A DNA stretch of 40,665 bases from an uncultured Bacteroidales bacterium (GTDB lineage Bacteria; Bacteroidota; Bacteroidia; Bacteroidales; FEN-979), in the NCBI GenBank assembly GCA_903929315.1, contig CAIYUC010000163.1:1-40665 (forward strand). The letters run 5' to 3'. Below, piece by piece: positions 10,549-27,072 of this stretch (its first letter is position 1; each line of letters begins with the position of its first letter). The position numbers and the translations under genes were made by a program. Below the pieces are notes generated by a model. The model had not been told where the DNA came from. It searched no databases and saw only the letters and a program-made list of their open reading frames with translations.

Positions 10549-10578
10549 TTTGCATTTCATAAAAGTATTTTAATCAGC

Positions 10579-10609
10579 AGCCCCCCGAGAACTCGGGGGG
10601 CTTTTTTTT
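10579..10609 (+). terminator. Intrinsic terminator after the cold-shock gene
   Basis: The arms AGCCCCCCGAG and CTCGGGGGGCT pair perfectly around a very small centre and are followed by a run of eight T (10602-10609). It is the clearest rho-independent terminator of the window. Confidence 0.92.
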
Positions 10610-10613
10610 GAAG

Positions 10614-10728
10614 AAACTCACCCCCTTAATCCCCCTCTCTTAAAAAAAGAGAGGGGGAAGGTTAATTCAGAAATTCACCTATTTAATCCCCCTCTCTTCC
10701 CAAGAGAGGGGAAAAAGGGGGTGAGTTT
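10614..10728. repeat. Palindromic element, family A (copy 1)
   Basis: This element of about 115 bases is bounded by perfect 12-base inverted ends, AAACTCACCCCC and GGGGGTGAGTTT. It holds two internal hairpins built from TCCCCCTCTCTT and its complement. A second copy lies at 16919-17040 inside a gene. It has no coding capacity. It is a MITE- or REP-like sequence. Confidence 0.85.
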
Positions 10729-10736
10729 TTACCAAA

Positions 10737-11551
10737 TTATTTAAATGGCGAGTCGGGTTCTTTTGCCATATGATTATACACCACTTTATCCATGAGTGAA
10801 GGAATGAATTTATTTATCAGCACGGTTAATCTTCCCTGTGTTGTAAGGATCAATGTTCTTTTTCTTTTCTCAATTGCATCCGCGATCTTTGTAGCCACCT
10901 GTTCGGCAGTCATCAGCTTACCCTCATCCAGAGGTGTTTCTCCCTGAGAGGTTCCGTCTTTGGAAAGAGCAACATTCCTTATATTGGACGCGGTAAATCC
11001 CGGGCAGGCGACCAGGACATGAAGTCCCTTTTTTAAATTTTCCATCCGGATGACGTCAAGTAAGCCTTGCATGGCAGCTTTGGAAGCTGTATAACCCGTT
11101 CGACCGGGTAACCCCTTATATCCTGCAATAGAAGAGATCCCCACCAGCGATCCTTTAGACTTTAAAAGGTGTGGTAGTGCATATTTCGAACAATAGACCG
11201 TTCCCCAGAAATTGGTATCCATCAACCGGTGTAATACTTTCAGATCGACTTCTTCAAACAGGGCACGCATGGAAATGCCGGCATTATTAATCAGAATATC
11301 AATCCTGCCATACTGTCTGATCGTTTTCTCAATCAGTGTCCTGCAATCGTATTCTTTTGAAACATCTGTCTTAACGAGAATAAAGTCGACATTATTTTTT
11401 TAAGCTCCTCCCCTGCTTCATTAAGCTTCTCCTCATTTCTTGCACATAATACAAGTTTTCCACCGCGTTTCCCGCATTCGAATGCAAGAGCTTTTCCTAT
11501 TCCTGAGGAAGCGCCTGTTATAATAATTACTTTGTCTTTCATTATCGTCAT
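10737..11551 (-). pseudogene. Short-chain dehydrogenase/reductase, frame broken at an A7 run
   Basis: Two pieces of one SDR lie in different frames. The first starts at 11551 (MTIMKDKVIIITGASSGIG, the TGxxxGIG cofactor motif) and runs into a wrong frame after EELKK. The rest, from about 11395 down to 10737, holds the expected ILINNAGIS, SSIAGYKG and catalytic YTASK motifs. The break falls in a run of seven A on the coding strand (11395-11401); one extra A joins the frames and gives a continuous EELKKNNVDF. The combined protein would be about 271 residues, normal for the family, with no other damage. It may be a recent pseudogene, a sequencing error, or a case rescued by slippage on the A-run. 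Substrate unknown. An intact relative lies at 35198-36037. Confidence 0.85.
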
Positions 11552-11593
11552 TTTTTGTCAAAAATAGGCAATTAATTGGGTTACATCTTATTT

Positions 11594-11697
11594 AACCACA
11601 ATGAACAATGTAAGCACCATGGTCACAATGAAAATATTCTTTGTGAACTTGGTGTAAACCCTGCCTGCCGGTATGCAGGCATCGTGTCATTGTGGTT
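11594..11697. repeat. MITE-like element, family B (copy 1)
   Basis: Perfect 11-base terminal inverted repeats, AACCACAATGA (11594-11604) and TCATTGTGGTT (11687-11697), bound about 104 bases. A further hairpin GCCTGC/GCAGGC lies at 11663-11680. The left half (to about 11639) is closely similar, in reverse orientation, to 24923-24970. No gene is inside. Confidence 0.75.
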
Positions 11698-11748
11698 TTT
11701 TTGCTTAAAATGATTTTGTAATTTAGCAAAGAATATCAACCTGAAATT

Positions 11749-12933
11749 ATGACTGAAAGAGAACTCTTCTTCCGGCACCTGGGATTGCCTTCATTTAACC
11801 CGTTTGGGCTGGAAATTGCAAAGGCTGAAGGGATTTATCTTTATGACACTTCAGGCAAGAAGTATATCGATCTTGTCTCTGGGGTCTCGGTCAGTAATCT
11901 TGGTCACGGGAATCCCCAGGTCATCGAAGCAATCCAAAGACAACTGGGAAACTATCTTTATGTGAATGTCTATGGCGAATTTATACTGTCGCCCCAGGTC
12001 AGGCTGGTTGAAAAGCTTATCACTGTTTTGCCTGCGGAATTATCCTCCATATACCTTGTAAATTCAGGAAGTGAAGCCGTCGAAGGAGCCATAAAACTTG
12101 CCAGGCGTTTCACAGGTCGCACAGAGATAATATCTTTCAATAATGCATACCATGGCAGTACCCTTGGAGCACTCAGCGTACTCGGGAATGAATCCCTTAA
12201 GAATGCATTCCGTCCCTTGATCCCCGATACCCGGATTATCCGGTTCAATAATACCAGTGATCTTGAGCAAATAACCAATAAAACAGCCTGTGTTATTTCC
12301 GAAACCATTCAGGCAGAAGCCGGGATGATTTTACCGGCACCCGGATTTTTAATACAATTGCGTGACCGTTGTTCGAAAACCGGTACTCTACTTATCGTTG
12401 ATGATGTCCAGATGGGATTTGGAAGGACCGGTAAAATGTTCAGCTTTGAGAATTTCGACATCATTCCTGACATTCTTGTGCTTGCAAAAGCCATGGGGGG
12501 AGGAATGCCTATCGGCGCTTTTATTTCGGCCAAAGAGATCATGGATACACTTGCCTTTCAACCGGAACTTGGACACATCACAACATTCGGGGGACATCCT
12601 GTGAGCTGTGCCGCATCATTGGCAAGCATTGAGATTCTTACTTCCCGAAATATCATTGAACAAGTAAATGAGAAAGGCCAAAGGATCTTCGATCAAATTG
12701 CATATCATCCATTCATCAAAGAAATAAGATGGAAAGGTTTGGCCATGGGTATTGAAATAAAAGATCCGGAGCTGCACAACCGGCTGACAGGATCGATGAT
12801 CTCCAATGGGATCATCATCGATTGGTTTCTATTTAAGCCGGATACGTTCCGTATTGCACCACCACTCACCATCACGAATGATGAGATTGATCTTTGTTGT
12901 GATCTGCTGCTAAAAAGTTTAAATGAGGTCTGA
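11749..12933 (+). CDS. Class III PLP aminotransferase (ornithine/acetylornithine type)
   Basis: This encodes 394 residues of fold-type I PLP aminotransferase. Landmarks are the NSGSEA phosphate-binding turn (105-110), YHGST (134-138), the PLP-pyridine Asp in IVDDVQMGFGRTG (D218; most relatives have DEVQTG), the PLP lysine in LAKAMGGG (K247), and a terminal RIAPPL motif. The general family transfers an omega-amino group to 2-oxoglutarate; acetylornithine, ornithine, gamma-aminobutyrate and similar donors are all possible, and no arginine-pathway gene is adjacent to decide. It is followed after five bases by aat, so the two are probably co-transcribed. Confidence 0.88.
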   Translation: MTERELFFRHLGLPSFNPFGLEIAKAEGIYLYDTSGKKYIDLVSGVSVSNLGHGNPQVIEAIQRQLGNYLYVNVYGEFILSPQVRLVEKLITVLPAELSSIYLVNSGSEAVEGAIKLARRFTGRTEIISFNNAYHGSTLGALSVLGNESLKNAFRPLIPDTRIIRFNNTSDLEQITNKTACVISETIQAEAGMILPAPGFLIQLRDRCSKTGTLLIVDDVQMGFGRTGKMFSFENFDIIPDILVLAKAMGGGMPIGAFISAKEIMDTLAFQPELGHITTFGGHPVSCAASLASIEILTSRNIIEQVNEKGQRIFDQIAYHPFIKEIRWKGLAMGIEIKDPELHNRLTGSMISNGIIIDWFLFKPDTFRIAPPLTITNDEIDLCCDLLLKSLNEV

Positions 12934-12938
12934 TATTC

Positions 12939-13649
12939 ATGCCGGTTTTTCAATTGACAAAAGAAATCCTGTTCCCGGATATTTCACAAGCGGAGGATGA
13001 CGGGTTGCTTGCAGTTGGCGGGGACCTGAGCATAGCGAGATTGCTTTCCGCTTACTCATCGGGTATTTTTCCATGGTATTCCGAGGGACAGCCTATCTTA
13101 TGGTGGTCTCCCGATCCAAGGCTCATCTTCCTTCCGGAGAAATTCAGGATATCTCATAGTTTACGACAGAAACTGGAAAAAAAGATTTTTAAAGTAAAGT
13201 TTGATACCGATTTTGACCGTGTTGTGGATATGTGTTCATCGGTGGAAAAACGGGCACTGGAGGGAACGTGGATTACCGTAGAGATGAAGTATTCCTACTC
13301 AGAACTATACCGTGCAGGTTATGCGCATTCCGTTGAATCTTATTATAATGGAACCCTTGTCGGAGGACTCTATGGCGTTTCTCTTGGAAGAGCATTTTTC
13401 GGAGAATCGATGTTTCACACCATGACGGATGCTTCAAAAGTTGCACTCTATCACCTGGTGAAAAGGCTGAAAGAATATCATTTTCTTTTGGTTGATGCAC
13501 AGATCGAGACGAATCACCTGGTCAGCCTGGGGGCAGAGATCATTTCCCGCACAAAGTATCAGTCCCTGCTGGAGAAAGCATTGAAGTATCCTACGCTAAA
13601 GGGAAAGTGGCGGGCAAGTGGTAAATTAATCAGAGATTCAGAGGCCTAA
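12939..13649 (+). CDS. aat: Leucyl/phenylalanyl-tRNA-protein transferase
   Basis: This adds Leu or Phe from charged tRNA to proteins with N-terminal Arg or Lys, marking them for ClpS/ClpAP in the bacterial N-end rule. The signature is clear: GLLAVGGDLS at 22-31, GIFPWYSEGQPILWWSPDPR at about 40-59, then the GNAT-like core with ESYYNGTLVGGLYGVSLG at about 128-145 and GESMFH. At 236 residues it is full length. It begins five bases after the aminotransferase stop, and its 3' end overlaps the convergent peptidase gene by 12 bases. Confidence 0.95.
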   Translation: MPVFQLTKEILFPDISQAEDDGLLAVGGDLSIARLLSAYSSGIFPWYSEGQPILWWSPDPRLIFLPEKFRISHSLRQKLEKKIFKVKFDTDFDRVVDMCSSVEKRALEGTWITVEMKYSYSELYRAGYAHSVESYYNGTLVGGLYGVSLGRAFFGESMFHTMTDASKVALYHLVKRLKEYHFLLVDAQIETNHLVSLGAEIISRTKYQSLLEKALKYPTLKGKWRASGKLIRDSEA

Positions 13650-14840
13650 TTTTTTCCTGATATCTTTTGGAACCGCATCCCTGTGAATCATTAAGTCGAT
13701 GGTCTTCAGTTTTACATACGCTTCGGAAGCATAGAAATAACCGTTGTACTTCGTGTTTTCCGTACCCCATGAATTCTTTACAATGTAATATTTGTTCCCT
13801 TTCTGGTCTTTTGCAATTCCGGTAATATGCATCCCATGGTCGTCGGTAGTACTGTAATTATCGAATTCTTCCTGACGCATTTCAGGCGTGATTACTTTTT
13901 CCGGTAATGGTTTATCAAACTTATAAAGTTCTTTATCCTTGTCACTGCTGGTCATTTTCGCCCATTTTTCTTTTTCAAGTTCTGCAAGTTCGGGAGCATT
14001 TTTATCAGGCACGATCGCGACTCCGTTTTTCCATGAAAATCCTTTTTCACTTACATCCCCGCCCCATGCCACGGTATATCCATTATTGATCGCATTATCG
14101 ATGATCCTGATCATGTCGTCAATTGTAACATTATACACTTGTTCCAATGCCCAATTGTCTGGAATTTCCAGGATAAATCGGGAATAGTAAGGATGATGTA
14201 TGAAGGATGTCAGTTCGACGTAATCATCCGGATTTAGACCCAGTGACTGGCCGTATGATTTTGGTGTATATTCCTTTCCTTTGTATGTGAATTTTTCCGG
14301 AATTTTCCCGAGATAAGAATCGAGCAAACCTTCAAAACCCTGGTGCCAGACGGGGGTCAGCTTACGATTATTGTTTTTCTGAACAGCATTTACATCGGCT
14401 TCCAGCACTGCATCCATTTCCCCATGAACAGGATTCTCCTCTCCAATAACACTGCCGGTATATATATCATAAGGGATCATTCCATAATTTTTCAGGACAT
14501 TCGTTACATCGTGAAACTCTCCTCCACTACCAAAATTATGCTTACCCTGGAACCGGATGTACATTGTGGCTTTATCAGAATATGCATTCCTTACACAGAA
14601 CATAGGGGAAAGGTTAACCGAATCCTTCCCTATCCTTAACAGTTCAGATTCAAGAAAAGAAGTTCCTGAAAAACTCCAGCAGGTTCCGGATCGGGATTGA
14701 TTTTTGACAGAGGTTGCAGGCAGTTGTTTCACAACAGTGAAGATATACCCGGAATCCGCTTTTTTTGGTGTATCCTGGGCGTAAGTGGAAAATGAGAACA
14801 GGAAGAAAATAATGAAAGGGAGCAGGTGCTTTGATTTCAT
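13638..14840 (-). CDS. Aminopeptidase C / bleomycin hydrolase-like C1B peptidase, exported
   Basis: This is a papain-fold cysteine peptidase of 400 residues. A signal peptide is present (hydrophobic core LLPFIIFFLFSFS, cleavage probably after TYA, residue 21), so unlike the cytosolic PepC it acts in the periplasm or outside, as is common for Bacteroidota members. The catalytic Cys is in SGTCWSFS (C54), His in DDHGMH (H335) and Asn in KNSWGT (N356). A Gln (Q48) in KNQSRSG would form the oxyanion hole. Family members are aminopeptidases that often assemble into hexamers. It is convergent with aat with a 12-base overlap. Confidence 0.9.
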   Translation of the reverse strand: MKSKHLLPFIIFFLFSFSTYAQDTPKKADSGYIFTVVKQLPATSVKNQSRSGTCWSFSGTSFLESELLRIGKDSVNLSPMFCVRNAYSDKATMYIRFQGKHNFGSGGEFHDVTNVLKNYGMIPYDIYTGSVIGEENPVHGEMDAVLEADVNAVQKNNNRKLTPVWHQGFEGLLDSYLGKIPEKFTYKGKEYTPKSYGQSLGLNPDDYVELTSFIHHPYYSRFILEIPDNWALEQVYNVTIDDMIRIIDNAINNGYTVAWGGDVSEKGFSWKNGVAIVPDKNAPELAELEKEKWAKMTSSDKDKELYKFDKPLPEKVITPEMRQEEFDNYSTTDDHGMHITGIAKDQKGNKYYIVKNSWGTENTKYNGYFYASEAYVKLKTIDLMIHRDAVPKDIRKKLGL

Positions 14841-14967
14841 AATGTTAAGTTGTTGATTTATTGATTAAAGAATTTTAAAATGATAGGATATAAACCTGTG
14901 TAAAAGTAGCGAAAAATTTGATTAACTTATAAATTTGAATCTGATTTCTGATAACTGCTTTCTGATC

Positions 14968-14999
14968 ATTATTCATTGTTCATTCTTCATTGTTCATTG
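14968..14999. repeat. ATTGTTC tandem repeat
   Basis: Short degenerate tandem copies of ATTGTTCATT / ATTCTTCATT abut the stop codon of the radical SAM gene. A similar TTATTCATAG/TTATTCATTG stretch is at 33045-33075. These are low-complexity intergenic repeats without an evident function. Confidence 0.5.
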
Positions 15000-15935
15000 T
15001 TAAAAAGGCTGCTCCCTTTCAAAATCAGGCCGGTAATGATCAGAGCTTTCCAATTCCTGTATCCAGCCATTCACCATCCCAAGTTTTATCATTTCGTCAG
15101 CTACTCTGTTATACTCATCAGGAAGTACTGTCCGGCCGAGTTCAGGATGGCACTGCACCTTTGGGGTCGGATAATATTGCGACATAAGAGAAACATGTAT
15201 CCCGGGTGAAATTTCCTCGGCAATATAACGGATGACTTTTACGCTGTTTTCCACCTGCCCTGGTAAAACAAGGTGACGGATGATAATTCCCGATTCGGCT
15301 GTTCTTTTATCGCCCAGATGTAATACCGGGCCTTTTTGCCGGACCATTTCCTTTATAGCGCCTGCGGCAACTTCCGGGTAGTCCGGCGCATCAGAATATG
15401 TTGATGCAAGAGCAGGATCACTGTACTTGAAATCCGGGAGATAAACATCGATCAATCCTTCCAATGAACGTAGGGTCTCAATTTTATCATATCCATTAGA
15501 ATTGTAAACCCAGACAGGTTTGTACCCAAGGGAATGAATAGCACTGATAATGGCCTTCACCTGCAGGATAACATGAGAAGGAGATACAAAGCCGACACGG
15601 GAAACACCTGAGTCCAGGATTGCGGTGATCTTTGCAATGATTTTCTCCAATGTCATTCCTGTATGATCCCTTTTTATACGATTGTCACTGATCTGGAAAT
15701 TCTGACAAAAGATACATTGAAGGTTACAGTTGGTAAAAAAAATATTGCATATCCCTTCACTACCGCTGATCGGCGGTTCTTCCCCATGATGAACAAAGAC
15801 GGAAGAGACAGGAAAGGAAAAATCCGTTTTGCACCAACCCAATTCATCCGAGAAACGGTTCGCATGGCAGTTTCTTGGACACAGAGTGCAATCATTAAGT
15901 TCTTCGAGATATGTATTAAGGTCGGGGAAATTCAA
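15000..15935 (-). CDS. Radical SAM protein, PflA-like (COG1313-type)
   Basis: This encodes 311 residues. The [4Fe-4S]-SAM site is CNLQCIFC (C70, C74, C77). An additional N-terminal Cys group, CTLCPRNC (C16, C19, C23) with C35, could bind a second cluster. The order and the SEGICNIFF context match the family annotated as putative pyruvate formate-lyase activating enzymes, which is broad and mostly uncharacterised. No glycyl-radical enzyme lies nearby, so the PFL-activase name should not be taken literally. The GYKPVWVYNSNGYD and HLVLPG motifs belong to the core barrel. It is a single gene. Confidence 0.88.
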   Translation of the reverse strand: MNFPDLNTYLEELNDCTLCPRNCHANRFSDELGWCKTDFSFPVSSVFVHHGEEPPISGSEGICNIFFTNCNLQCIFCQNFQISDNRIKRDHTGMTLEKIIAKITAILDSGVSRVGFVSPSHVILQVKAIISAIHSLGYKPVWVYNSNGYDKIETLRSLEGLIDVYLPDFKYSDPALASTYSDAPDYPEVAAGAIKEMVRQKGPVLHLGDKRTAESGIIIRHLVLPGQVENSVKVIRYIAEEISPGIHVSLMSQYYPTPKVQCHPELGRTVLPDEYNRVADEMIKLGMVNGWIQELESSDHYRPDFEREQPF

Positions 15936-16022
15936 GACGGGATGATCCTTTTTTCATTATTTTTGACTGGTTTTTGAAGCCTCACCGCATATGGCGTTAA
16001 CAAAAAAGTAGAATTTTAAAGG

Positions 16023-16097
16023 TTTCTCGCAAAGTTAAAATATTTGTTATCAACCCTCTGCGAAACTCAGCGATTCATCAGCGAGCCTCTGCGAGAA
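16023..16097. repeat. Palindromic element, family C (copy 1)
   Basis: This copy begins TTTCTCGCAAAGTTAAAA and ends CAGCGAGCCTCTGCGAGAAA, so its ends are complementary (TTTCTCGCA and TGCGAGAAA). Its reverse complement closely matches 31012-31079. It lies upstream of the HAD gene. The rest of the gap to 16204 shows no further recognisable feature. Confidence 0.75.
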
Positions 16098-16204
16098 ATA
16101 AAAAACACTTTTTGCACAACCTGAAGTGTGTGTGATGCGCATATAACCTCCTGGGATTTATCCTGGAGTTCAATTTAATTTGTTGCATCAAAGGTACAAT
16201 TTTC

Positions 16205-16855
16205 ATGAAACTGGATCTTACCCGGTATTCTCATATTCTCTGGGACTGGAATGGCACCCTTCTGGATGATGCCTGGCTTTGCGTTGATGTGATGAACAGT
16301 ATGCTGACTGAACGAAAACTGCAACCTCTTACACTTACGCGTTACAGGGATATATTCTCTTTCCCCGTTAAAGATTATTACCTGTTGCTGGGGTTTGACT
16401 TTGAAAAGGAACCATTTGAAAAAGTCGGGATGGATTTTATGAACTTATATAACCTCCGTCAGAGGGAATGTACGCTCCATCCCGGAGCACGGGAAATTCT
16501 TCTGCAATTATCCGGGAAAGGAATCCCACAATCGGTTTTATCAGCGAGGGAGGAAAATGAACTCAGGACAGAGATAAAGGAATCAGGCATTGCAACATTT
16601 TTCGACAAGATATATGGTCTGGACGACCATTATGCCCATGGGAAAACAGATATAGGAGTTAAACTTATTACCGACCTGCGTTTGCCAGTGGAAAAATTGC
16701 TTTTTATCGGTGATACTTTACATGATGCTGAAGTGGCAAAGGAGCTGAACATGGATTGTATCCTGATCCCGGAAGGGCATCATTCTGCGGAAAGACTTTC
16801 TGGGTCGGGTTTTCCGGTAATTGCATCACTACGGGAATTAACAGGCTTATTATGA
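16205..16855 (+). CDS. HAD-family hydrolase (phosphoglycolate-phosphatase-like)
   Basis: This encodes 216 residues, cytosolic. HAD motif I is DWNGTLLDD: the nucleophile D14 is present, but the second Asp (general acid) is Asn16, a substitution that recurs in one branch of this family. Motif II is at SVLSA (about 116-120), the conserved Lys at about 143 in GKTD, and motif IV in FIGDTLHDAE. A helical cap follows motif I. The substrate is probably a small phosphorylated sugar or metabolite. The stop overlaps the start of the next gene as ATGA, so it may be coupled to the glycosidase locus and might dephosphorylate a sugar derived from it. Confidence 0.85.
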   Translation: MKLDLTRYSHILWDWNGTLLDDAWLCVDVMNSMLTERKLQPLTLTRYRDIFSFPVKDYYLLLGFDFEKEPFEKVGMDFMNLYNLRQRECTLHPGAREILLQLSGKGIPQSVLSAREENELRTEIKESGIATFFDKIYGLDDHYAHGKTDIGVKLITDLRLPVEKLLFIGDTLHDAEVAKELNMDCILIPEGHHSAERLSGSGFPVIASLRELTGLL

Positions 16856-19800
16856 AACGTTTCTGTTCATTATTGATTTTCTGTATTTGTTCGTGTACGG
16901 TTTTAGCCGGTCTTCCAGAAACTCACCCCCTCAGTCCCCCTCTCTTAAAGGAAGAGAGGGGGAAGTTTAGCTTAGAAACTCAGTTCCTTAATCCCCCTCT
17001 CTTTCCAAGAGAGGGGGAAGCCGAAGGCAGGGGTGAGTTTATTAACGCCACCGATTCCAACTACCATATTGGATTTATCACTTCAACTAATTATGAAACA
17101 AGCGACAGGGAAGTAAAAGCAGCTTTTGACTTTCTCGGGGGTTGCAAAGGATATTCCTCTTCCATCATCACTTTCCAGGAAATTAAAAAGGATCCGAAAA
17201 TCCTTAACCGTTTCAATGCCCTTTGGTTCCACAGGCCTGATACGACAGCCTTTTCCGATATTGAGAACGGGAAAAAAGTATTGCATGCAATCCGTCAATA
17301 CCTGGAGAAAGGAGGCAACCTGTTATTATCTCTTGATGCATTTCGTTACCTGGTAAATCTTGGATTGGAAACGGTTCCACCGGAAATACGGTTTAAATCA
17401 TGTATTGATGAGGGTTATGGAAGGCGTCTTGGATTTCATGGTTTCCGTGAACATCCTGTTTTTGAAGGCATGAACGGGGGAGCTTATGTAAACCGTCCCG
17501 ATAAAGACATGACGGTAAGACAAGTTGGCTATTTTGACAATCATTTACCGGCAAATGGAAAAGTCGTAGCTGTCGATTGGGATTATATTTTCCTCAGGGA
17601 AGATTCAAAACTGATCCTTGAGTATGATCAGGGTAAAGGAAAAATTCTGGCGGTAGGATCCTATACCTATTTTTCTATGCCAAATTATAACCGGGAACAC
17701 CTGGAGTTATTTTTCAGAAATGCATTTCATTACCTGGTCACAAGAAAACCTGGTTCAGGGATCTTTTACTGGGACTATAAACCGAATAAAGTATTGGAAT
17801 TTCCGGGGCAAAACAAAGGAAAAGATTCAAGCTTTTCAGCTATTCCGGAAAGCAAGACATGGATAACCGGTAACGGGCCGCTTACCCTTACCGGGCGGTT
17901 TTCATCGGGCAATTACTGGGATGTTGCGGGAGAACGGATGCTGACGATGGGCAATGAAAACGGCAGTATTGAAGAGATCTGGGCGCATCCTTTTATGGCT
18001 TTCAGGGATTATGAAGTGGGGATTAAATTCGAATATAAGGATACAATATTCTGGCTCGGTGATGAAAGACCACAAATCGAGGTGAATCCCTCTTTCTTTT
18101 CACGGATCTATAAGTTTCCAAGAGCCTACCTGACAGAAATTATCGTTGATGACCCTGTCATGCCGGCGGGTGTGATCCATTATGAATATAAAGGAGTCTA
18201 TGGGGCTGAGTTGATCCTGAAAGTTAAAAGCAATTTACGATTGATGTGGCCTTATTCCGAAAAGGTCCCGGGAACAATTTTTCATTCGCTTGACACAAAT
18301 TATCATGCTTTGGTAGTGAAAGATAAATCGGGTGATTTTGTTGCAATGATCGGTGGCAATAAGAAACCCGGTGAAATGATAAGCGGACAGTTTTCAGGAT
18401 TCAGATATAACAGTATTGATAAAGGCTGGAAAGGTATCCCGACAGATCGGTTCCAGGTGATGGGACTTATGACGTATTCTTTAAAGATGAATGACAGGAT
18501 GGACATTGTTTACAGTGCAACAAACGAAGGATATGACCAGACAATAAAGGATTTCGATCAGACGATACGTGATCCTCAGTTGGTCTTTGACAATGAAACT
18601 GCACATACAAAGGATCTTCTTGAGAAAAGTCTTAAAATAACAACACCGGATGAGGAATTTAACCAGGGATACAAATGGGCATTGTTAGCCACAGACCGAT
18701 TCTTTGTCAATACCCCGGGAATGGGAAAATCTCTTGTTGCAGGTTATTCCACTACAAAAAGAGGATGGGATGGTGGTCAGAAAGTGAACGGAAGACCCGG
18801 TTATGGCTGGTATTTTGGAAGGGATGGGGAATGGAGTGGCTTTGCTTTGCTCGACTATGGCGATTTTACGAAAGTAAAGGCAGAGCTTGAATTTTACCAG
18901 AAATATCAGGATCTCTCCGGCAAGATATTCCATGAGGCAACAACTTCCGGGGTTGTTCATTATGATGCGGCAGATGCAACACCTTTGTATATTATACTTG
19001 CAGGCAAATATTTTCGTCATACGAACGATACCGCTTTTCTCCGGAAAAGCTGGCCAAACATTAAAAAGGCTGTGAATTTTTGTTTCTCTACTGATACGGA
19101 CAAAGATCATCTTATCGAAAATACCAATGTAGGCCATGGCTGGGTGGAAGGTGGCGAGCTGTATGGCTCACACGCCACTTTATATATGGCCGGATGCTGG
19201 GCCGAAGCCTTGGAGGAAACTTCAAACATGGCCCATTTCCTGAAAGATGCTGAAGAAGAAAGCTATCACCGTGAATCCGGTATTATAAGGGGTATAATAA
19301 ATACTGATTTCTGGAATAAAGACAATAATTTTTATTCCTACGGAAAAAATAAAAATGGTTCATTCCGGTCTGAACCTACCGTTTTACCTGCTGTTCCGTT
19401 ATATTTCAGGCTTTGTAATACAGAAATGGCAAAACTGGTTTTAGATCAATATGCTTCAAACGCGTTTACCACCAATTGGGGAACCCGGATCATCAGGGAT
19501 GACAGTCCCTGGTTTAACCCGGCAGGATATCATTACGGGAGTGTTTGGCCTCTTTTTACAGGCTGGACAGCGCTGGCTGAATTTAACTATGGGAATTACC
19601 CCCAGGGTTTTTCACACCTGATGAACAACCTGAAAGTGTACAAGAACTGGGGACAAGGGTTTGTAGAAGAGGTGCTGAATGGCGCTGAATATAAGCCCTC
19701 AGGTGTGTGCCCTCACCAGTGCTGGTCGGAAACAATGGTCCTCCAACCTGCTATCGAAGGCTTGCTCGGACTGGTTATAAGAGCACAGGAAAACAAAGTC

Positions 19801-20394
19801 ATACTTGCACCTCATCCGCCTGCTAATTGGGATTCACTTACGGTAGAGAACATAAGGATTGGACAGCAGGTAATCAGTTTCAGGATGAACAGGACATCAG
19901 AAACATACCTTTATTCTTTTACTTCGGTGAAACCGGAGCCTGTAACGATAGAATTTACCCCTACCTACCCTGCCGGCACAATTTTCAAAAAGATTCAGAT
20001 GAATGGCCAAGAGATCCCTTTTACCGTTTTTAATTTGAAGCAATATATTTCTCTTCTCATGAATATTCAGTTAAAAAAGGAAGGTATCCTGGAAATTCAA
20101 TATGAAAAAGGGATCAGTGTATTGCCTGCGGTTCCGGATCCGAACCCGGGAGATCCTGCAGAAGGGCTGCGGATCCTTTCGGTGAACTTCAAAGGAAACC
20201 AGTATAAGATCAATCTGGAAGGGAAAAGAGCCAGTTCGGAGTCAATCGAAGTTTATCTTCATGGACAAGCTATTGAGAGGATTGAGAATGGAAATATAGA
20301 GAATATCAAAGGCGATATTGTCCGGATTGGAGTGATATTCGATCCGGTGACTGACAAATATGTGAAGAAAACCGTTGTGATAACCCTGAAATAA
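16852..20394 (+). CDS. Exported six-hairpin glycosidase, glycogen-debranching-like, with amidotransferase-like N-domain
   Basis: This is about 1180 residues from the ATG at 16852, which overlaps the HAD stop and begins a signal peptide (MKRFCSLLIFCICSC, cleavage near residue 19). Residues 23-63 are encoded by a palindromic repeat (see that entry). Residues 65-330 form a flavodoxin-like, class I glutamine-amidotransferase/ThuA-like domain with no catalytic Cys seen. A beta-sandwich region follows. An (alpha/alpha)6 barrel occupies about residues 600-1000, with WYFGRDGEWSG, VGHGWVEGG, SVWPLFTGW and CPHQCWSET, the pattern of debranching enzymes and GH15/GH63-like glucosidases. The acid and base are probably Asp/Glu in GRDGEW and GWVEGG. 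A C-terminal beta domain closes the protein. It hydrolyses alpha-linked oligosaccharides by inference; linkage unknown. TAATG overlap with the next gene. Confidence 0.75.
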   Translation: MKRFCSLLIFCICSCTVLAGLPETHPLSPPLLKEERGKFSLETQFLNPPLFPREGEAEGRGEFINATDSNYHIGFITSTNYETSDREVKAAFDFLGGCKGYSSSIITFQEIKKDPKILNRFNALWFHRPDTTAFSDIENGKKVLHAIRQYLEKGGNLLLSLDAFRYLVNLGLETVPPEIRFKSCIDEGYGRRLGFHGFREHPVFEGMNGGAYVNRPDKDMTVRQVGYFDNHLPANGKVVAVDWDYIFLREDSKLILEYDQGKGKILAVGSYTYFSMPNYNREHLELFFRNAFHYLVTRKPGSGIFYWDYKPNKVLEFPGQNKGKDSSFSAIPESKTWITGNGPLTLTGRFSSGNYWDVAGERMLTMGNENGSIEEIWAHPFMAFRDYEVGIKFEYKDTIFWLGDERPQIEVNPSFFSRIYKFPRAYLTEIIVDDPVMPAGVIHYEYKGVYGAELILKVKSNLRLMWPYSEKVPGTIFHSLDTNYHALVVKDKSGDFVAMIGGNKKPGEMISGQFSGFRYNSIDKGWKGIPTDRFQVMGLMTYSLKMNDRMDIVYSATNEGYDQTIKDFDQTIRDPQLVFDNETAHTKDLLEKSLKITTPDEEFNQGYKWALLATDRFFVNTPGMGKSLVAGYSTTKRGWDGGQKVNGRPGYGWYFGRDGEWSGFALLDYGDFTKVKAELEFYQKYQDLSGKIFHEATTSGVVHYDAADATPLYIILAGKYFRHTNDTAFLRKSWPNIKKAVNFCFSTDTDKDHLIENTNVGHGWVEGGELYGSHATLYMAGCWAEALEETSNMAHFLKDAEEESYHRESGIIRGIINTDFWNKDNNFYSYGKNKNGSFRSEPTVLPAVPLYFRLCNTEMAKLVLDQYASNAFTTNWGTRIIRDDSPWFNPAGYHYGSVWPLFTGWTALAEFNYGNYPQGFSHLMNNLKVYKNWGQGFVEEVLNGAEYKPSGVCPHQCWSETMVLQPAIEGLLGLVIRAQENKVILAPHPPANWDSLTVENIRIGQQVISFRMNRTSETYLYSFTSVKPEPVTIEFTPTYPAGTIFKKIQMNGQEIPFTVFNLKQYISLLMNIQLKKEGILEIQYEKGISVLPAVPDPNPGDPAEGLRILSVNFKGNQYKINLEGKRASSESIEVYLHGQAIERIENGNIENIKGDIVRIGVIFDPVTDKYVKKTVVITLK
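16919..17040. repeat. Palindromic element, family A (copy 2), in frame inside a gene
   Basis: It has perfect 11-base inverted ends, AAACTCACCCC and GGGGTGAGTTT, with two internal TCCCCCTCTCTT hairpins. It encodes about 41 residues of the host protein (PLSPPLLKEERG, FLNPPLFPREGE and so on) directly after the signal peptide, without a stop. Compare copy 1 at 10614-10728. Confidence 0.92.
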
Positions 20395-22541
20395 TGAAAA
20401 TTCAAATCATTTTCATGATCGTTGCATTGATGGAATTTCCTATTCCCGGAAACCCGCAATATCTATCCAGCCTGAACGCAACACGGAATGATGCCCTTTT
20501 TACTACCTATGCCGCGCCCATAAATCGTTCCACATATAAAACCGACCAAGGGTATCAGTTCATGTGGTACGATGATGAGAGTGGAGTTGAATTCATCAAC
20601 AGTGACGGGCTGAATCTCGGACTTGAATGGAAAATGGGAAAGGAAGTTCGTTTTAAATTAAAAGAACTTTACCGGGAACCTGTTGTGACGACTTCTTACA
20701 GCGACCTGGTCAGATATTATTATTATCCCTTTAAGGATATTCGCGTGGAGGTATTTTTTGATGTTTATTCCTCAACCCAGGCGGTTGAGGATATTATGAT
20801 CACAAACGAATCAAAATTCCCACAGGAGATCGGCTTATTTCCATATTTCTATTATCCTTCCGACGATACCATGAATGACATCACCCATGAAACCCCCTAT
20901 GATTTCTATACATTCCCTTTCGTTAAAAAAAGAGATGGCTGGATGATTGAACATCAAATCCCCATGACTGAAAAGCTGAAAGGGTACCTTCTCGGGAATA
21001 TTCAACAGGATAGCCTGCAAACTTTTGTACTCAAACGATCTTCTTCCACTTTTAACAAGGCCGATCCCTTTAATGAGCTTAAAAGATCTATTCTATTGCG
21101 GAAACGAAAGGCTAAAGTTATTAAAGGAATTATCATTGCCAGGAATTTCAAATTACAACCGGGTGAACGGACACATTTCCGCCTCTTAACCGGATTGGAA
21201 GAGGCGGAAATCCGCGTACCGGATCTTTACAGGAAAGCTGATCCCTTATTAAAATTGGAGATGGACAAACTAATCAGGGAGGATGAGAGAATGTATTCAA
21301 CTATTCCTCCCATCCAACAGAGTTTTATTAATCAGCAGGAACCTTTGCCAGCGAGAGGTCTTGAAATGCTTTATTGGAGCTGTTTTTCATTGCTCCGTCA
21401 ATGTATGATGCCCGCGGAAGGAAAATGTTCATTCAATTATTATATTTTCTCACGGGAGCCGAAATGGGGATGGGGATATGGCGGACAGGTCTTTCATGAA
21501 AGTTTGTCGATGCTTGCTTATGCATATATGGACCCAAAGGGAGCCATGAATTCCCAGCGGATTTACTTCGAACGGCAGCATGACGACGGTTATATTAATT
21601 ACAGGACCGGGCCATATCTTGATGAGACTATTGAATATAATGGGAAATTCACCACCTCAGCTCCATGGTTCAATTATGAAAATCTTGAGATCTATAAAAT
21701 TACCGGGGACAAGCAATTTTTAAAGGATGCATATAATTCAGGTAAGAAATTTTATGAGTATTATACTATTCAGCGGGATTCCAATAAGAACGGCCTGTGT
21801 GAATGGGGAGCCGAAGCGGAACTGGAATCCGTAAGAGATGCCAGGGTGGCGGTTTGGGATAAAGTCGGGTGGCCTTCCAATTTTGAAGGAGTGGATGTGA
21901 ATTCGATGCTGGTGAAGGAAGCACAGTCACTTTCTGAAATGGCTGAAATATCAGGATTCACGGAAGATGCAAAGAAATGGAAATCAGAAACCATAAACAG
22001 GATGAAACTGATCAATAAATATATGTGGGATAAGGATTTGGGTTTTTATTTTAATATAAACAGGAATGATGAGTCGTTTACCTACCGCGTACCGGGCGAT
22101 CTGAAGATCAAAGAGATCATCGGGTTTCTTCCTTTGTGGGCGGGTGTGTGCGATTCGGTAAGGGCAAAAATGCTGGTTCATATCATGACCAATCCGGATG
22201 AATTCTGGCGATCCTTTGGAGTACCCACTCTTTCTGCAAAAGACGATTATTACAACCCGGTCGGTTACTGGAATGGCCCGGTCTGGGTTCAATGGGACTA
22301 TTTATTGTTCCGCGGGCTGCTTGACTATGGGTATAAGAAAGAGGCTGAAGAGCTGGCTTATAAGGTTCTTGACAACATGGTCTGGCATTTAAAGAAAGAT
22401 CATGTTTTCTGGGAATTCTACAGTGCAGATGACCGCCAGGCCGGGTGGAACAAGACATACATATGGGCGGGGCTGGCAGCAAGGTTTCTGATTGATTTGA
22501 ATTTTTCTTCACCACAAAGACACAAAGACACAGAAAAATAA
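20394..22541 (+). CDS. GH63/MGH1-like six-hairpin glycoside hydrolase
   Basis: This encodes 715 residues with an N-terminal hydrophobic segment (about residues 3-16) that looks like a weak signal peptide. Residues 25-300 are a beta-sandwich domain and 300-705 an (alpha/alpha)6 barrel with WGWGYGGQVFHESLSMLAYA, CEWGAEAE, YWNGPVWVQWDYL and FWEFYSADD, a set shared with GH63 and mannosylglycerate-hydrolase-like proteins. The two acids are probably in WGAEAE and FWEFYS. It is a paralogue of the next gene over its whole length. The start overlaps the upstream stop (TAATG). The last ten residues (about 706-715, SPQRHKDTEK) and the stop derive from an intergenic repeat. The substrate is probably an alpha-glucoside or alpha-mannoside; not determined by sequence. 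Confidence 0.78.
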   Translation: MKIQIIFMIVALMEFPIPGNPQYLSSLNATRNDALFTTYAAPINRSTYKTDQGYQFMWYDDESGVEFINSDGLNLGLEWKMGKEVRFKLKELYREPVVTTSYSDLVRYYYYPFKDIRVEVFFDVYSSTQAVEDIMITNESKFPQEIGLFPYFYYPSDDTMNDITHETPYDFYTFPFVKKRDGWMIEHQIPMTEKLKGYLLGNIQQDSLQTFVLKRSSSTFNKADPFNELKRSILLRKRKAKVIKGIIIARNFKLQPGERTHFRLLTGLEEAEIRVPDLYRKADPLLKLEMDKLIREDERMYSTIPPIQQSFINQQEPLPARGLEMLYWSCFSLLRQCMMPAEGKCSFNYYIFSREPKWGWGYGGQVFHESLSMLAYAYMDPKGAMNSQRIYFERQHDDGYINYRTGPYLDETIEYNGKFTTSAPWFNYENLEIYKITGDKQFLKDAYNSGKKFYEYYTIQRDSNKNGLCEWGAEAELESVRDARVAVWDKVGWPSNFEGVDVNSMLVKEAQSLSEMAEISGFTEDAKKWKSETINRMKLINKYMWDKDLGFYFNINRNDESFTYRVPGDLKIKEIIGFLPLWAGVCDSVRAKMLVHIMTNPDEFWRSFGVPTLSAKDDYYNPVGYWNGPVWVQWDYLLFRGLLDYGYKKEAEELAYKVLDNMVWHLKKDHVFWEFYSADDRQAGWNKTYIWAGLAARFLIDLNFSSPQRHKDTEK

Positions 22542-22584
22542 TATGTTGATTATAAACTATTTGTGTCTCCGTGTCTCCGTGGTG
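22510..22584. repeat. Palindromic element, family D, overlapping a gene end
   Basis: The left arm CACCACAAAGACACAAAGAC and the right arm, whose complement is CACCACGGAGACACGGAGAC, face each other around an AT-rich centre. The left arm encodes the last residues and stop of the preceding glycosidase. No second copy is in the window. Confidence 0.8.
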
Positions 22585-22617
22585 AGGAAAAACTACTCAT
22601 TTTCTATTGAATTGCCT

Positions 22618-22625
22618 TAACTTTG
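22618..22625 (+). promoter_or_regulatory. Bacteroidota -7 box before the third glycosidase
   Basis: TAACTTTG matches TAnnTTTG. It ends 18 bases before the ATG at 22644, and the alternative TTG start at 22623 lies within it, so the ATG is chosen. The -33 box is weak. Confidence 0.5.
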
Positions 22626-22643
22626 GGTAAAATTCGCAATCTT

Positions 22644-24824
22644 ATGAGGTACCCTCTCTTCTTTCTGGCATATATGATCCTACCCGTAATGATGACGGCT
22701 CAGTCCTCCATTGCAACAGCGGACTATCTCGAAATGAGCGCCAAAGCCAGTGATCCTCTTTATACTACTTATGCAGCTGCAATGCAGCGATCACGATTGT
22801 ATGGGGATAAGGCCTATAAGATGGATTATTATTCGGATTGCAGCCCGGTAAGCTACTCAAGCGATCATGCAGGGACACTATTTGCTATCTGGAAAATAGA
22901 CCAGGTCGTGATCAGCAAGACTGGTGAATATTTTGCAAAACCTGTTATCAAGTATTCTTTTCCGGATATGATGATCATGGAATATGAGCCATTCCGGGGG
23001 ATCCATGTGGAGGAAACCTTCCTGGTCTATAGCTCTGAAATTGCAATTGTCGATATGCAGGTAAAAAATACGGATAATGTCCCTCATCAAATATCTGTCT
23101 ATCCTGTTCTTGAAACCGGCAATGATTCACTTCAGATCATTGCTTATGATAAACCAAATGACGGTTATATCACACATCGCTACGAAAGTCCCTACCGCCT
23201 GATCAGCAGTCTGAAAACAGAATACGGATACCCCACCCGGACAAGGGACTTTTTTACTGCCGGGGAAAAGGTTTATTCATATGGAGGATATTCAGGGGAT
23301 ATGAACGATTTTTATAACGTGATCAAAACCGATTTCTATACTTCCAAAAGAAGCGACACTTTGAATCTTAAAGATGCTGGTTATGTTGATTTTATTGCAC
23401 TTCATCTAAAGTCTAAGTTAAATCCCGGTGAAGAGATAAGTTTCCGGTATCTGAGAGGAGTTCAGGCACAAAACGAGAACGCTGATTCGCTTAAAAATGA
23501 GATGACCCGGTTAAAAAGTTTGTCCTTGCAGGAATTTTTTGAAGATAATCTCAAACTGTTTTCGACCATTCCGAAACTGCAATTTGAAACGGACGCTGAA
23601 AAACAGGTTTATCTGGGTGCTTTCAACCTTGTGAGAGGATGCATGTATCCTCCGTCGGGAAAGACAAGCTTTAACTTTTATTCTTTTTCGAGAAATCCTC
23701 TTTGGGGTTGGGGACACGGGCACCAGGTGCTTCATGAATCTCTTAGCATGCTTGCCTATGCTTACCTGGATCCGGTTTCAGCTGAAGGATCGCAGAGGGT
23801 TTATATGGAACAGCAAGGTCCTGACGGATTGATTGCATACCGGCATGGACCTCGTGGAATGCAGGACTATCCCCATAACAATAAACCGACTACTTCCGCT
23901 CCTTTTTTCAGCTGGATCAACTGGGAGATCTATAAGGTAAGTCATGATAAACTTTTCCTGCAGGACTCTTATCAATCCGGAAGTAAATATGTTGAATGGC
24001 TGATCAGGAACAGGGATACCAACAAGGATGGCACATTTGAATGGGGACCCAATGGTATCATTGAAAATGTACGGGATTGGTACAATGCGGTTTTCCAGGT
24101 ATCTGCAGAACGTTATCTTGATGTTGACAAGGAAGATATCTCGGATGAACTCGAATGTCTTGATCTTACCTGTATGGTGATCAAAGAGGAACGCTCCCTT
24201 TCAAAGATGGCAAGAGAACTTGGCAAGTATCGTGAAGCGGACAAATGGTTAGCAAAAGCAGACTCTGTATCGAGGCTGGTGAATGAACGTATGTGGGACG
24301 AATCCACCGGATTCTATTATTCCGTGAATAAAAAGGATTACTCCTTCACATATATGACAAGAGATCTCAAAAGGCAGGAGATCATCGGATTTCTGACCTT
24401 GTGGGCAGAAGTTGCTCCCAAAGACCGTGCTGATCGCCTGGTCAAGACCCTGATCAACCCTGCCAAATTTTGGAGGAAATACGGTATCCCGACGCTGTCA
24501 GCCCAGGATCCCTGGTACAGTCCATATGTAGATTATTGCTGCAAATGGAACGGCCCTGTCTGGCTGCTTTGGGATTATATGGTTTATGAAGGGCTCCGCA
24601 ACTATGGCTATAATAATATTGCAAAAGGCCTGGCGGATAATTTAATGCTTTGCGTCACAACCCAACTGTCGAAAAACCATAATTTCTGGGAATCTTACAG
24701 CCCTGATAATGAAGTCCTGAATTGTCCTTCCAACTATATCTGGGATTCCATCATGGCAAAGTTGCTGATCGAGGAATCATTTAACAATATTCCTTCTATA
24801 GAGGATGAACCCGATAAGAATTAG
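22644..24824 (+). CDS. GH63/MGH1-like six-hairpin glycoside hydrolase, paralogue
   Basis: This encodes about 726 residues from the ATG at 22644. A signal peptide is clear (MRYPLFFLAYMILPVMMTAQ, cleavage near residue 19). The N-terminal beta-sandwich is followed by an (alpha/alpha)6 barrel with GWGHGHQVLHESLSMLAYA, FEWGPNG, KWNGPVWLLWDYM and NFWESYSPDN; these align with the previous gene motif by motif, so the pair arose by duplication. The probable acids lie in FEWGPNG and FWESYS. A Cys-Cys (DYCCKWNG) replaces the VGYWNG of its partner. It is separated from the partner by a palindromic repeat and a promoter-like box, so it may be transcribed on its own as well. Confidence 0.8.
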   Translation: MRYPLFFLAYMILPVMMTAQSSIATADYLEMSAKASDPLYTTYAAAMQRSRLYGDKAYKMDYYSDCSPVSYSSDHAGTLFAIWKIDQVVISKTGEYFAKPVIKYSFPDMMIMEYEPFRGIHVEETFLVYSSEIAIVDMQVKNTDNVPHQISVYPVLETGNDSLQIIAYDKPNDGYITHRYESPYRLISSLKTEYGYPTRTRDFFTAGEKVYSYGGYSGDMNDFYNVIKTDFYTSKRSDTLNLKDAGYVDFIALHLKSKLNPGEEISFRYLRGVQAQNENADSLKNEMTRLKSLSLQEFFEDNLKLFSTIPKLQFETDAEKQVYLGAFNLVRGCMYPPSGKTSFNFYSFSRNPLWGWGHGHQVLHESLSMLAYAYLDPVSAEGSQRVYMEQQGPDGLIAYRHGPRGMQDYPHNNKPTTSAPFFSWINWEIYKVSHDKLFLQDSYQSGSKYVEWLIRNRDTNKDGTFEWGPNGIIENVRDWYNAVFQVSAERYLDVDKEDISDELECLDLTCMVIKEERSLSKMARELGKYREADKWLAKADSVSRLVNERMWDESTGFYYSVNKKDYSFTYMTRDLKRQEIIGFLTLWAEVAPKDRADRLVKTLINPAKFWRKYGIPTLSAQDPWYSPYVDYCCKWNGPVWLLWDYMVYEGLRNYGYNNIAKGLADNLMLCVTTQLSKNHNFWESYSPDNEVLNCPSNYIWDSIMAKLLIEESFNNIPSIEDEPDKN

Positions 24825-24969: not shown

Positions 24970-25074
24970 AAACTCCTATTGCAAGATTCTAATATATATT
25001 CTGTCTTTAAATGAAATTCTTTGCGAACTTTGCAGTGTTTTTATGCTATTTTACCGGTAGTACAGATTTTTATA

Positions 25075-27072
25075 ATGAAAAGAATACTTAGAACAGAATA
25101 TTTCGCTTATCTGGTCATTTCGGTTTTCCTGGCATCCTGTGACGCTCCCAATAAAACGGATCTTGAAAAACTACTGTCACCCGGCGCATTACCTTATCTG
25201 AAATCAAGCAAGCTGGTCCAGGTATCAAGTTATGATACTTCGGGAAGAAATAATGACCGGATCAGCATACCTTCAGGGAAAACGGTTACTATTCTGAATG
25301 CACAGGGACCGGGTGTAATCACCAGGGTATGGTTTTCCCTCGATTCAAAAGACCCTGGCATGTTGCGGCAAATTCTGCTTAGAATATATTGGGACGATGA
25401 AGACGATCCTTCGATCAATGTCCCTTTCGGTGATTTTTTCGGATGTGGTTTCGGATACAAACCCTACACGACCCCTTACCTGAGTATGACCAGCGGTGGC
25501 TATACCTGTTTCTTCCCCATGCCATTTGAAGAATCGGCAAAAATCGAGATTGTCAATGAATCCGGACAAGAAGTTTACGGATTCTATTACCAGATCGATT
25601 ATCAGAAAATAGAAGGTTATCTCTCGAGGGATATAGGATACCTGCATGCATACTGGCATAGGGTTATCCGGACAGATTATGATTCCAACTATACGATATT
25701 AAAAACCGAAGGGACAGGACATATCGTAGGTCTCAATTTAAACATCCAATCTTATGACGGAAGCTTTGCATATCTTGAAGGCAATGAGAAGATCTATATC
25801 GACGGGGAAAAGAATCCATCGATCCAGGGTACAGGAACGGTAGATTATTTCTCAGGAGGATGGTACTTTAATAACGGTGAATTTGCAGGCCCTTATAACG
25901 GATTGATTTTAAAGGATGATTCTCTGGGAAGGATTGCTGCTTACCGTTTTCATATCACCGACCCGATCCCGTTCAAAAAATCCATCAACTTCAGCATCGA
26001 GCATGGACAGAAAAACACCGAAATTGCCGATTACAGCAGTACAGTTTACTGGTACCAGACCGAGCCTCATAAAAAAATGCAACCGATACTCAAAGCGGGG
26101 TTAAGAATACCTTTAAGAGTTGTTACTCCAAACAGGATCCTTGAAGCTGAAAAACTAAAATTCAACCTGGGTAAAATCAAATCCAAGATTATGGATATGA
26201 CGGATTATGGTCCCGAATGGAGCGGATCAAAGCAATTGCTGATCGAAGCGCAGGAAAAAGACTCTTTTTCACTGAACATTCAGAACCTTCAGGACATTTC
26301 ATACACGGTCAACCTGTATTATACCAAAGGTCCCAATTACGGAAATGTCGGAATTTGGGTAGGAGATAAAAAAGTCGGGGAAATCGACGGATACTACCCG
26401 ACGATCCACCCAGGAGGCAAAATATCTATCCCTGATCTGTCAAACCCATATAACCGTGTTATTCTTGATTTTATGATAGAAGGGAAGAACGAAAGTTCTG
26501 CCGGATATTATGCAGGCCTGGATGGTATTAGTCTCGAACCAAAAAGAATATGGATCCCCGACTGGTATGTTATCGGTCCTTTCCCGGATCCCCGGAGACG
26601 GGACAATTCACGGTCGGGCATTGACTCTGTATTTCCGCCAGAGCAAGCTGTTGATATTAAACATGTTTACCCCGGTGTCAACAGGCAACCATTGCATTGG
26701 CAATATATTAAAACACCAGACCTGGGGTATGTTTCACTTTCCAATCTTGTAAAGCCCAATGAACGGGCAGTTTGTTATGCCGTAAGCTATATTTATTCAC
26801 CTGAAGAAACAGTCATTCCATTTTTCATTGGCTCGGATGATGGGATTAAGGTTTTTTTCAATAATAAGCAGGTATACCGGTTTCAAAACATACGGAGTGC
26901 ACGGCCTGACCAGGCTGAATTATATATCCGCGTGAAAAAAGGGTGGAATCAATTACTTCTAAAGATAGAAAATAATTCAAGTGGATTTGCTTTTTTTGGA
27001 AGACTTATCGATAAGGATCGTATTCTTACAATCAATGCGGATCAAAAGTTGCCATTAACAAAAGCAAAATGA
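25075..27072 (+). CDS. DUF2961 / GH172-family lipoprotein
   Basis: This is about 665 residues from the ATG at 25075. The start is chosen because it gives a signal peptide with lipobox LASC (cleavage before the Cys near residue 22); the longer frame begins at a TTG. The DUF2961 core runs from GPGVITRVWFSL through NVPFGDFFGCGFG, YTCFFPMPFEES, YQIDYQ and YRFHITDPIPF. The family is now GH172, which includes alpha-fructofuranosidases and alpha-D-arabinofuranosidases. A beta-sandwich and a PA14-like C-terminal domain (VIGPFPDPR, then GSDDGIKVFFNNKQVY, GWNQLLLKIEN) probably bind sugar. It is a surface or periplasmic lipoprotein of the glycan locus. It overlaps the next gene by four bases. Confidence 0.85.
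   Translation: MKRILRTEYFAYLVISVFLASCDAPNKTDLEKLLSPGALPYLKSSKLVQVSSYDTSGRNNDRISIPSGKTVTILNAQGPGVITRVWFSLDSKDPGMLRQILLRIYWDDEDDPSINVPFGDFFGCGFGYKPYTTPYLSMTSGGYTCFFPMPFEESAKIEIVNESGQEVYGFYYQIDYQKIEGYLSRDIGYLHAYWHRVIRTDYDSNYTILKTEGTGHIVGLNLNIQSYDGSFAYLEGNEKIYIDGEKNPSIQGTGTVDYFSGGWYFNNGEFAGPYNGLILKDDSLGRIAAYRFHITDPIPFKKSINFSIEHGQKNTEIADYSSTVYWYQTEPHKKMQPILKAGLRIPLRVVTPNRILEAEKLKFNLGKIKSKIMDMTDYGPEWSGSKQLLIEAQEKDSFSLNIQNLQDISYTVNLYYTKGPNYGNVGIWVGDKKVGEIDGYYPTIHPGGKISIPDLSNPYNRVILDFMIEGKNESSAGYYAGLDGISLEPKRIWIPDWYVIGPFPDPRRRDNSRSGIDSVFPPEQAVDIKHVYPGVNRQPLHWQYIKTPDLGYVSLSNLVKPNERAVCYAVSYIYSPEETVIPFFIGSDDGIKVFFNNKQVYRFQNIRSARPDQAELYIRVKKGWNQLLLKIENNSSGFAFFGRLIDKDRILTINADQKLPLTKAK

Follow-up and report, generated by a model that had tools for sequence, protein, structure and literature searches.

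A palindromic repeat read in frame in the post-signal linker of a predicted Bacteroidales glycosidase, and unrelated repeats at the same joint

The window, which is the whole stretch of 40,665 nucleotides analysed here from an uncultured Bacteroidales bacterium, contains a gene for a predicted exported glycosidase-like protein whose frame of 1180 codons is opened by an ATG at 16852 (Table 1). In Pfam searches the 1180-aa protein matched DUF4960 and several glycosidase families of the (alpha/alpha)6 type, at weak to moderate strength, and the top Foldseek matches include chitobiose and cellobiose phosphorylases (GH94), amylo-alpha-1,6-glucosidase, and GH116 and GH63 enzymes. The AlphaFold model has a mean pLDDT of 84.0 and features a first strand that begins at residue 71. 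The block means of pLDDT are 21-25 for residues 1-60 and 92 for residues 71-80; because the alignment rows began near residue 66, with none covering about residues 1-65, the low values at residues 1-60 are weak evidence of disorder. The neighbourhood of the gene is conserved, and among 30 oriented loci, including the window, the HAD-like gene is present in 29, the radical SAM-like gene in 28, and the next glycosidase (>40% identity) in 22. The next glycosidase is absent at L038, L042 and L055-L060, some of which end early. Altogether three adjacent genes with six-hairpin-type glycosidase domains span 16852-24824 on the plus strand of the window, and they are followed by a DUF2961 gene (25021-27072) and a minus-strand gene for a protein with an FGE-sulfatase domain (28100-30904).

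Table 1. Positions of the genes and repeat units discussed, numbered from the first base of the window.
Feature	Position	Strand	Description
Radical SAM-like gene	15000..15935	-	Syntenic with relatives
HAD-like hydrolase gene	16205..16855	+	Its stop and the start of the glycosidase gene overlap (ATGA)
Predicted exported glycosidase-like protein, 1180 aa	16852..20394	+	Signal-peptide-like N-terminus, repeat-coded linker, DUF4960-like domain, (alpha/alpha)6-type glycosidase domain
Signal-peptide-like residues 1-19 (MKRFCSLLIFCICSCTVLA)	16852..16908	+	Cleavage after A19 judged by eye
Left unit of the element (half-element)	16919..16965	+	Outer arm AAACTCACCCCC and hairpin CCCCCTCTCTT/AAGAGAGGGGG; commonest form among the listed own-genome copies
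Right unit of the element (65 bases)	16976..17040	+	Outer arm GGGGTGAGTTT; left arm degenerate
Second six-hairpin-type glycosidase gene	20394..22541	+	Syntenic in many relatives
Second composite copy of the element	10614..10728	+	In the gap between a cold-shock-like small gene and a short-chain dehydrogenase gene

A composite palindromic element of 122 bases, designated family A, occupies 16919-17040 on the plus strand and has the ends AAACTCACC...GGTGAGTTT. The element features two hairpins (CCCCCTCTCTT / AAGAGAGGGGG) inside an outer inverted repeat (AAACTCACCCC / GGGGTGAGTTT). Its predicted RNA fold has a free energy of -71.2 kcal/mol and a z-score of -6.63, and none of 200 shuffles was as stable. 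The 122-base element and its gap copy had been described in an earlier note made from the DNA letters, and both are present as claimed, with 82% identity between them (BLAST, E 8e-28). The small gene beside the gap copy is one that we take to be cold-shock protein-like. The short-chain dehydrogenase gene on the other side (10737-11748, minus strand) has an apparent frameshift that places its N- and C-terminal parts in different frames, which is either a real disruption or a sequencing error. A search of the bacterium's own genome (G000) with the element as query gave 36 BLAST matches at E<=0.01, and together with two extra sites from a pattern search the distinct places number 26, two of which are 24-base fragments. 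The two window copies are the only ones in the full 122-base composite form. The remaining copies are mostly the half-element of about 41-49 bases, and those at G000:C12 and C233 resemble the 65-base right unit. An ORF heuristic placed 23 of the 26 in gaps, two inside genes and one at an ORF end with a 2-base overlap; the element is a short multi-copy palindrome that is mostly intergenic (23/26), as are the REP and GTAG/CGTC superfamilies. A search of Rfam with window positions 10500-17200 returned 14 matches at E<=1, none of which reached the gathering score. An Rfam identity was rejected on these sub-threshold matches, many of which are to plant-type microRNA families and are caused by the hairpins.

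The element makes up all of codons 23-63 of the glycosidase gene except for the first base of codon 23. Codons 23 (16918-16920) to 63 (17038-17040) encode ETHPLSPPLLKEERGKFSLETQFLNPPLFPREGEAEGRGEF, a stop-free stretch of 41 aa, which bears out the claim that the repeat is read in frame as about 41 residues directly after the signal-peptide-like N-terminus, the latter as judged by eye. A coding role for the element is confirmed at the level of the DNA sequence. The in-frame ATG, GTG and TTG codons among the first 283 codons fall at residues 1, 8, 144, 172, 207, 220 and 276, so that the first in-frame start past the element is a TTG at residue 144, within the domain conserved in orthologues. A true start downstream of 17040 had been named beforehand as the finding that would overturn this reading, and there is no in-frame start between the element and the conserved domain. 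The glycosidase start overlaps the stop of the upstream HAD-like gene by 4 bases (ATGA). Using orthologue start codons that were picked by hand, the same 4-base overlap was found at 18 of 28 loci, window included, and is not universal; the start itself reads ATGA more often (24 of 29 loci). At 27 of the 28 loci the start and the HAD stop range from overlapping by 19 bases to being 5 bases apart; the exception is L058, where the start is 64 bases off.

The frame used in the gene, referred to as the THP frame (THP...PPLL..ERG), is open in all 21 script-matched units from the bacterium's own genome, and the other five frames of the same units are open in 8, 7, 0, 8 and 13. In this genome the element itself thus offers an open frame, and selection need not have made it. 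The result of 21/21 is not a clean test, since 67% of frames are open in shuffled units and the copies are related by descent. Other genomes supplied 16 units, of which 10 have the THP frame open; two of the remaining frames are open more often (13 and 14). The open THP frame is not a property of the wider element family.

Matches to the glycosidase were found in 40 of 61 genomes, own genome included, some of them being weak paralogues. An alignment query kept 80 named loci of 125, mostly from Bacteroidales or Bacteroidetes assemblies, and a contig scan with the single protein as query gave no matches. Length and identity filters reduced 103 sequences to an orthologue set of 81. A FastTree phylogeny of the 81 orthologues groups the window protein with L032 (support 99). 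In 26 of 29 aligned family rows the signal peptide is followed by a linker of roughly 30 aa with a Q(A/S)xKGQSxRMHxIxL-like motif (KGQSxRMHxI-like), which the sister L032 carries in diverged form. The motif is missing from the window protein; it is also missing from L034 and L060, both of which have no repeat. The number of residues before window position 73 is 72 in the window protein, 56 in L032, 55 in the family median, 35 in L034, and 27 in the median of the other orthologues. An insertion of 41 aa would be expected to give 97 residues from an L032-like linker or 76 from an L034-like linker, and the difference between 72 and 97 indicates a loss of about 25 ancestral residues, the KGQSxRMHxI-like motif among them. 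On this comparison, which is between species and offers no clean empty site, the old linker would have been lost before the insertion of the element or with it. The element is absent from the orthologue N-termini compared, a few loci ending short of the N-terminus, and no long orthologue match starts before query residue 53. Outside the own genome, a search with the element peptide found weak matches only, with E>=0.01 and in frames 25-96 aa long; they come from 3 of the 42 family genomes. The comparison with orthologues that the earlier note had proposed finds the motif linker in 26 of 29 rows where the window protein has the element. The repeat does act as a coding stretch at a tolerant site, but its description as an "extra linker" is not supported: it was not simply added, as about 25 residues of the older linker are gone.

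The same joint is occupied by unrelated repeats in other lineages. In genus g4, L056, L057 and L059 feature KDEGR-type linkers whose DNA resembles GAAGGACGARGG heptamers. A pattern search that allowed up to 2 mismatches and counted overlapping positions found 325 matches to GAAGGACGARGG in G011, 320 in G004, 127 in G019, and 49 in G026, all g4 genomes, versus 35, 7, 1, and 4 for the backward control; in G000 and G002 the heptamer gave 0 matches and the control 2 each. By inspection, a perfect tandem of the GAAGGACGARGG heptamer is stop-free in all six frames. At L171 the joint holds a different palindrome, which codes CHSRENGNP...NFRGNDK. Counting itself, it is matched 8 times in the L171 genome, and the L170 genome gave at least 19 matches (40 of 60 candidates scored). 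The neighbour L170, with 89% DNA identity to L171 over 4 kb, does not have the palindrome at the joint, and the pair is no clean empty site because there is no alignment upstream of the conserved domain. Mapped on the FastTree tree of the 81 orthologues, the presence of a repeat in the linker after the signal peptide requires at least 3 changes; in this count L055, sister to L056, L057 and L059, was scored as repeat-positive, its insert not being counted as a proven repeat. Additionally, L199 from a Lentimicrobiaceae assembly features a CCCCCTCTCC palindrome in frame near position 117 (L199:3130-3201), in a different loop of the same protein, and this palindrome has 16 matches in the L199 genome, itself and second strands included. 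The suggestion that an insert would do least harm after the signal peptide agrees with these unrelated repeats and with a modelled fold that begins only at residue 71. The post-signal joint looks like a permissive site that collects stray repeats.

A survey of the genome for other in-gene copies had also been proposed, and it found one more among the 26 places classified by the ORF heuristic, in a UvrA-like gene (G000:C28) that reads the element in the same THP frame. The protein matches Pfam UvrA_DNA-bind and ABC_tran. At this site 8 of 11 aligned relatives have no insert; G011 and G004 carry other repeats, and the remaining relative, G008, an unrelated stretch of shorter length. A search for the G011 repeat gave 78 matches in G011 itself, 6 of them in the uvrA-like locus, and between 3 and 10 in each of three further g4 genomes, with no match in G000 or G002. 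The G004 repeat has 15 matches in G004, 5 of which are in the uvrA-like locus, and 0 in five other genomes searched, G000 among them. Further candidates for in-gene copies were set aside by eye: L003, L088, L095 and L104 have a likely start downstream of the element, and L014, L094, L097 and L112 were judged antisense, frameshifted or too short.

Among 43 family genomes, 5 contain the half-element pattern, and in a search across the phylum it matched 8 of 392 sampled genomes, own genome included in both counts; not all of the 8 have the tight hairpin. Of the 22 loci L119-L140, only L122 and L128 feature the tight hairpin. It was found at none of the 15 of these loci that come from G368 and G371, which for this reason may be other elements and were left out of the in-gene copies. 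The own genome has six loci with Y1 transposase genes, and the element was found in the examined flanks of none of them. A resident Y1 transposase with the element at its flanks was set aside as the mobiliser, several of the six loci being near other palindromes; the element may instead have been moved in trans or by a transposase since lost. The palindromes near or between which Y1 transposase genes lie are of the CCCCGGACTTCAGGCCGGGG (L113), GGCGCGCGTC (L116) and GGGGCGGGTTC (L118) types. The outer arm GGGGTGAG of the element fits GGGGWSAS, a motif of some TIRs linked to TIRYT tyrosine transposases according to PMC3733652. As for a MITE of a DDE transposon, terminal inverted repeats are present, and by eye there is no target-site duplication at the flanks of the two composites. 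The fit to GGGGWSAS and the missing duplication suggest that a Y1-type or recombination route would suit the element better than a DDE transposon, but none of the six Y1 loci bears it.

In-gene palindromic repeats are already known as the RPEs of Rickettsia, REPs and ERIC-type repeats. The RPEs are palindromic repeats of ~150 bp that lie in frame within genes by means of an open frame, and nearly half of those in R. conorii are in genes, as stated in a review (PMC10969869). The element resembles the RPEs in its in-frame insertion into conserved genes, here the glycosidase gene and the UvrA-like gene. It differs in host phylum and in the share of copies in genes (2 of 26, versus the nearly half given for R. 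conorii in that review); additionally, the older linker is missing at the site and unrelated repeats occupy the same site in orthologues. The half-element, with a REP-like head and a hairpin, resembles a REP, and REPs are reported in uvrA of O. terrae and Thioalkalivibrio in a section of PMC3733652, as the copy here is in a uvrA-like gene. However, by eye the element ends AAACTCACC / GGTGAGTTT lack the GTAG or CGTC tetranucleotide of the GTAG/CGTC REPs, and none of the six Y1 tyrosine transposase loci of the own genome has the element within the examined flanks. In that section, roughly shared insertion sites are noted only for Xanthomonas recB, the sites being different in the other cases. 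Enterobacterial RU/ERIC sequences are small mobile repeats fused to coding sequence, and according to PMC2759123 RU-2 forms part of a predicted signal peptide in Y. pestis YPO1552, whereas the window element follows the signal-peptide-like N-terminus. In the parts of the openly licensed literature that were searched, no account of this repeat family was found, nor any case of unrelated repeats sharing an orthologous linker beyond the remark on Xanthomonas recB (PMC3733652).

The reading that we prefer, with a probability of roughly 0.8, is that permissive linkers repeatedly capture short repeats endemic to a genome and that the window element is one such case. A REP-like element with many copies in its own genome and in few others of the family would have been inserted after the signal peptide and ahead of the first folded domain, and its stop-free THP...PPLL..ERG frame would have kept the glycosidase intact. 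The ancestral KGQSxRMHxI-like linker would have been lost in the same event or earlier. The insert would have survived owing to the tolerant stretch, not owing to any known job of the peptide, and the glycosidase joint and the UvrA-like loop would repeatedly have taken up short repeats abundant in the given genome. This reading draws on the open coding frame, the conserved start and synteny, the absence of the element from the orthologue N-termini, the in-frame uvrA-like copy, and the other repeats at both sites; that the repeat-coded linker is translated, exported and neutral is inferred, as is the route of its mobilisation.

The earlier note had called the repeat "exapted", and in the sense of a selected function this finds no support. 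A peptide with a selected job, such as an outer-membrane spacer or a binding or cleavage site, would be consistent with a frame intact across 41 codons at the place of the conserved-motif linker seen in 26 of 29 aligned family rows; however, L034 and L060 are also without the motif and have no repeat there, quite different repeats lie at the joint in other lineages as tolerance predicts, and no comparable family gene emerged from the peptide search, all of which makes true exaptation very unlikely. A role in the mRNA is unlikely. The hairpins in codons 23-63 would in that case slow ribosomes during emergence of the signal peptide or stabilise the HAD-glycosidase-glycosidase transcript, with the peptide as a by-product. 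The very stable predicted fold (z -6.63), the hairpin arms that are perfect despite coding, and the good fold of the unrelated L171 palindrome at the same joint (-34.4 kcal/mol) agree with such a role. However, perfect arms are expected anyway in recent copies, and the poor fold of the heptamer repeat found at this joint (-3.0 kcal/mol for the L174 stretch) argues that there is no shared RNA structure.

Two further explanations are less likely still. An assembly chimera joined at the repeat is hardly credible: the genome is in 244 contigs and draft assemblies break at repeats, yet the flanks are both syntenic with relatives and in one frame, and exact identity to those other own-genome copies that were compared runs for 37 bases at most, under the usual read length. 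It is equally improbable that translation begins downstream and that the element is 5' untranslated sequence. Such an arrangement has parallels in the open frames of L003, L088, L095 and L104, which by eye run from the element into a gene with a likely later start, but in the window gene the next in-frame start is the TTG inside the conserved domain, and the close spacing to the HAD stop is kept at 27 of 28 loci.

Beyond the two sites, capture by permissive linkers can be put more broadly: disordered joints in conserved bacterial proteins may be recurrent sinks for genome-endemic short repeats, an expanding family being written stop-free into the same orthologous linkers, i.e., the glycosidase joint and the UvrA loop and, in g4, also linkers or loops of HtpG, IspG, AlaRS, PolA, XseA, CinA and lipoyl E2. 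We hold this generalisation tentatively, at somewhat less than even odds. Of 10 heptamer-bearing proteins, 9 matched Pfam, and the heptamer inserts lie in or beside HSP90, alanyl-tRNA synthetase, DNA polymerase I, GcpE, exonuclease VII, CinA, 2-oxoacid dehydrogenase acyltransferase and PorP/SprF domains. In 60 fetched regions of G011 and G019 (L246-L305), 19 of 57 heptamer clusters fall in long open frames at varied positions, so that no general claim of repeat enrichment after signal peptides follows. At L248:1-1851 and L264:331-1572, both on the minus strand, the opposite-strand heptamer codes PSSLVLRPSSF-like peptides that by eye are apparently part of the signal peptide; the L248 protein has no Pfam match.

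That unrelated genome-endemic repeats recur at shared permissive sites is of more interest than a single insertion. In the literature available, descriptions of in-gene palindromic repeats come mainly from Rickettsia, with scattered insertions of the REP or ERIC type besides, and the present case is from Bacteroidales. Two orthologous sites, each with unrelated repeats in different lineages, separate the tolerance of the site from the properties of any one repeat, and the origin of linkers becomes directly testable through comparison of orthologues. Repeat-coded inserts in conserved proteins of repeat-rich Bacteroidales may be taken for errors by gene callers and in alignments. If the broader reading is true, linker sequence in these bacteria would change through the replacement of repeats in addition to point mutation.
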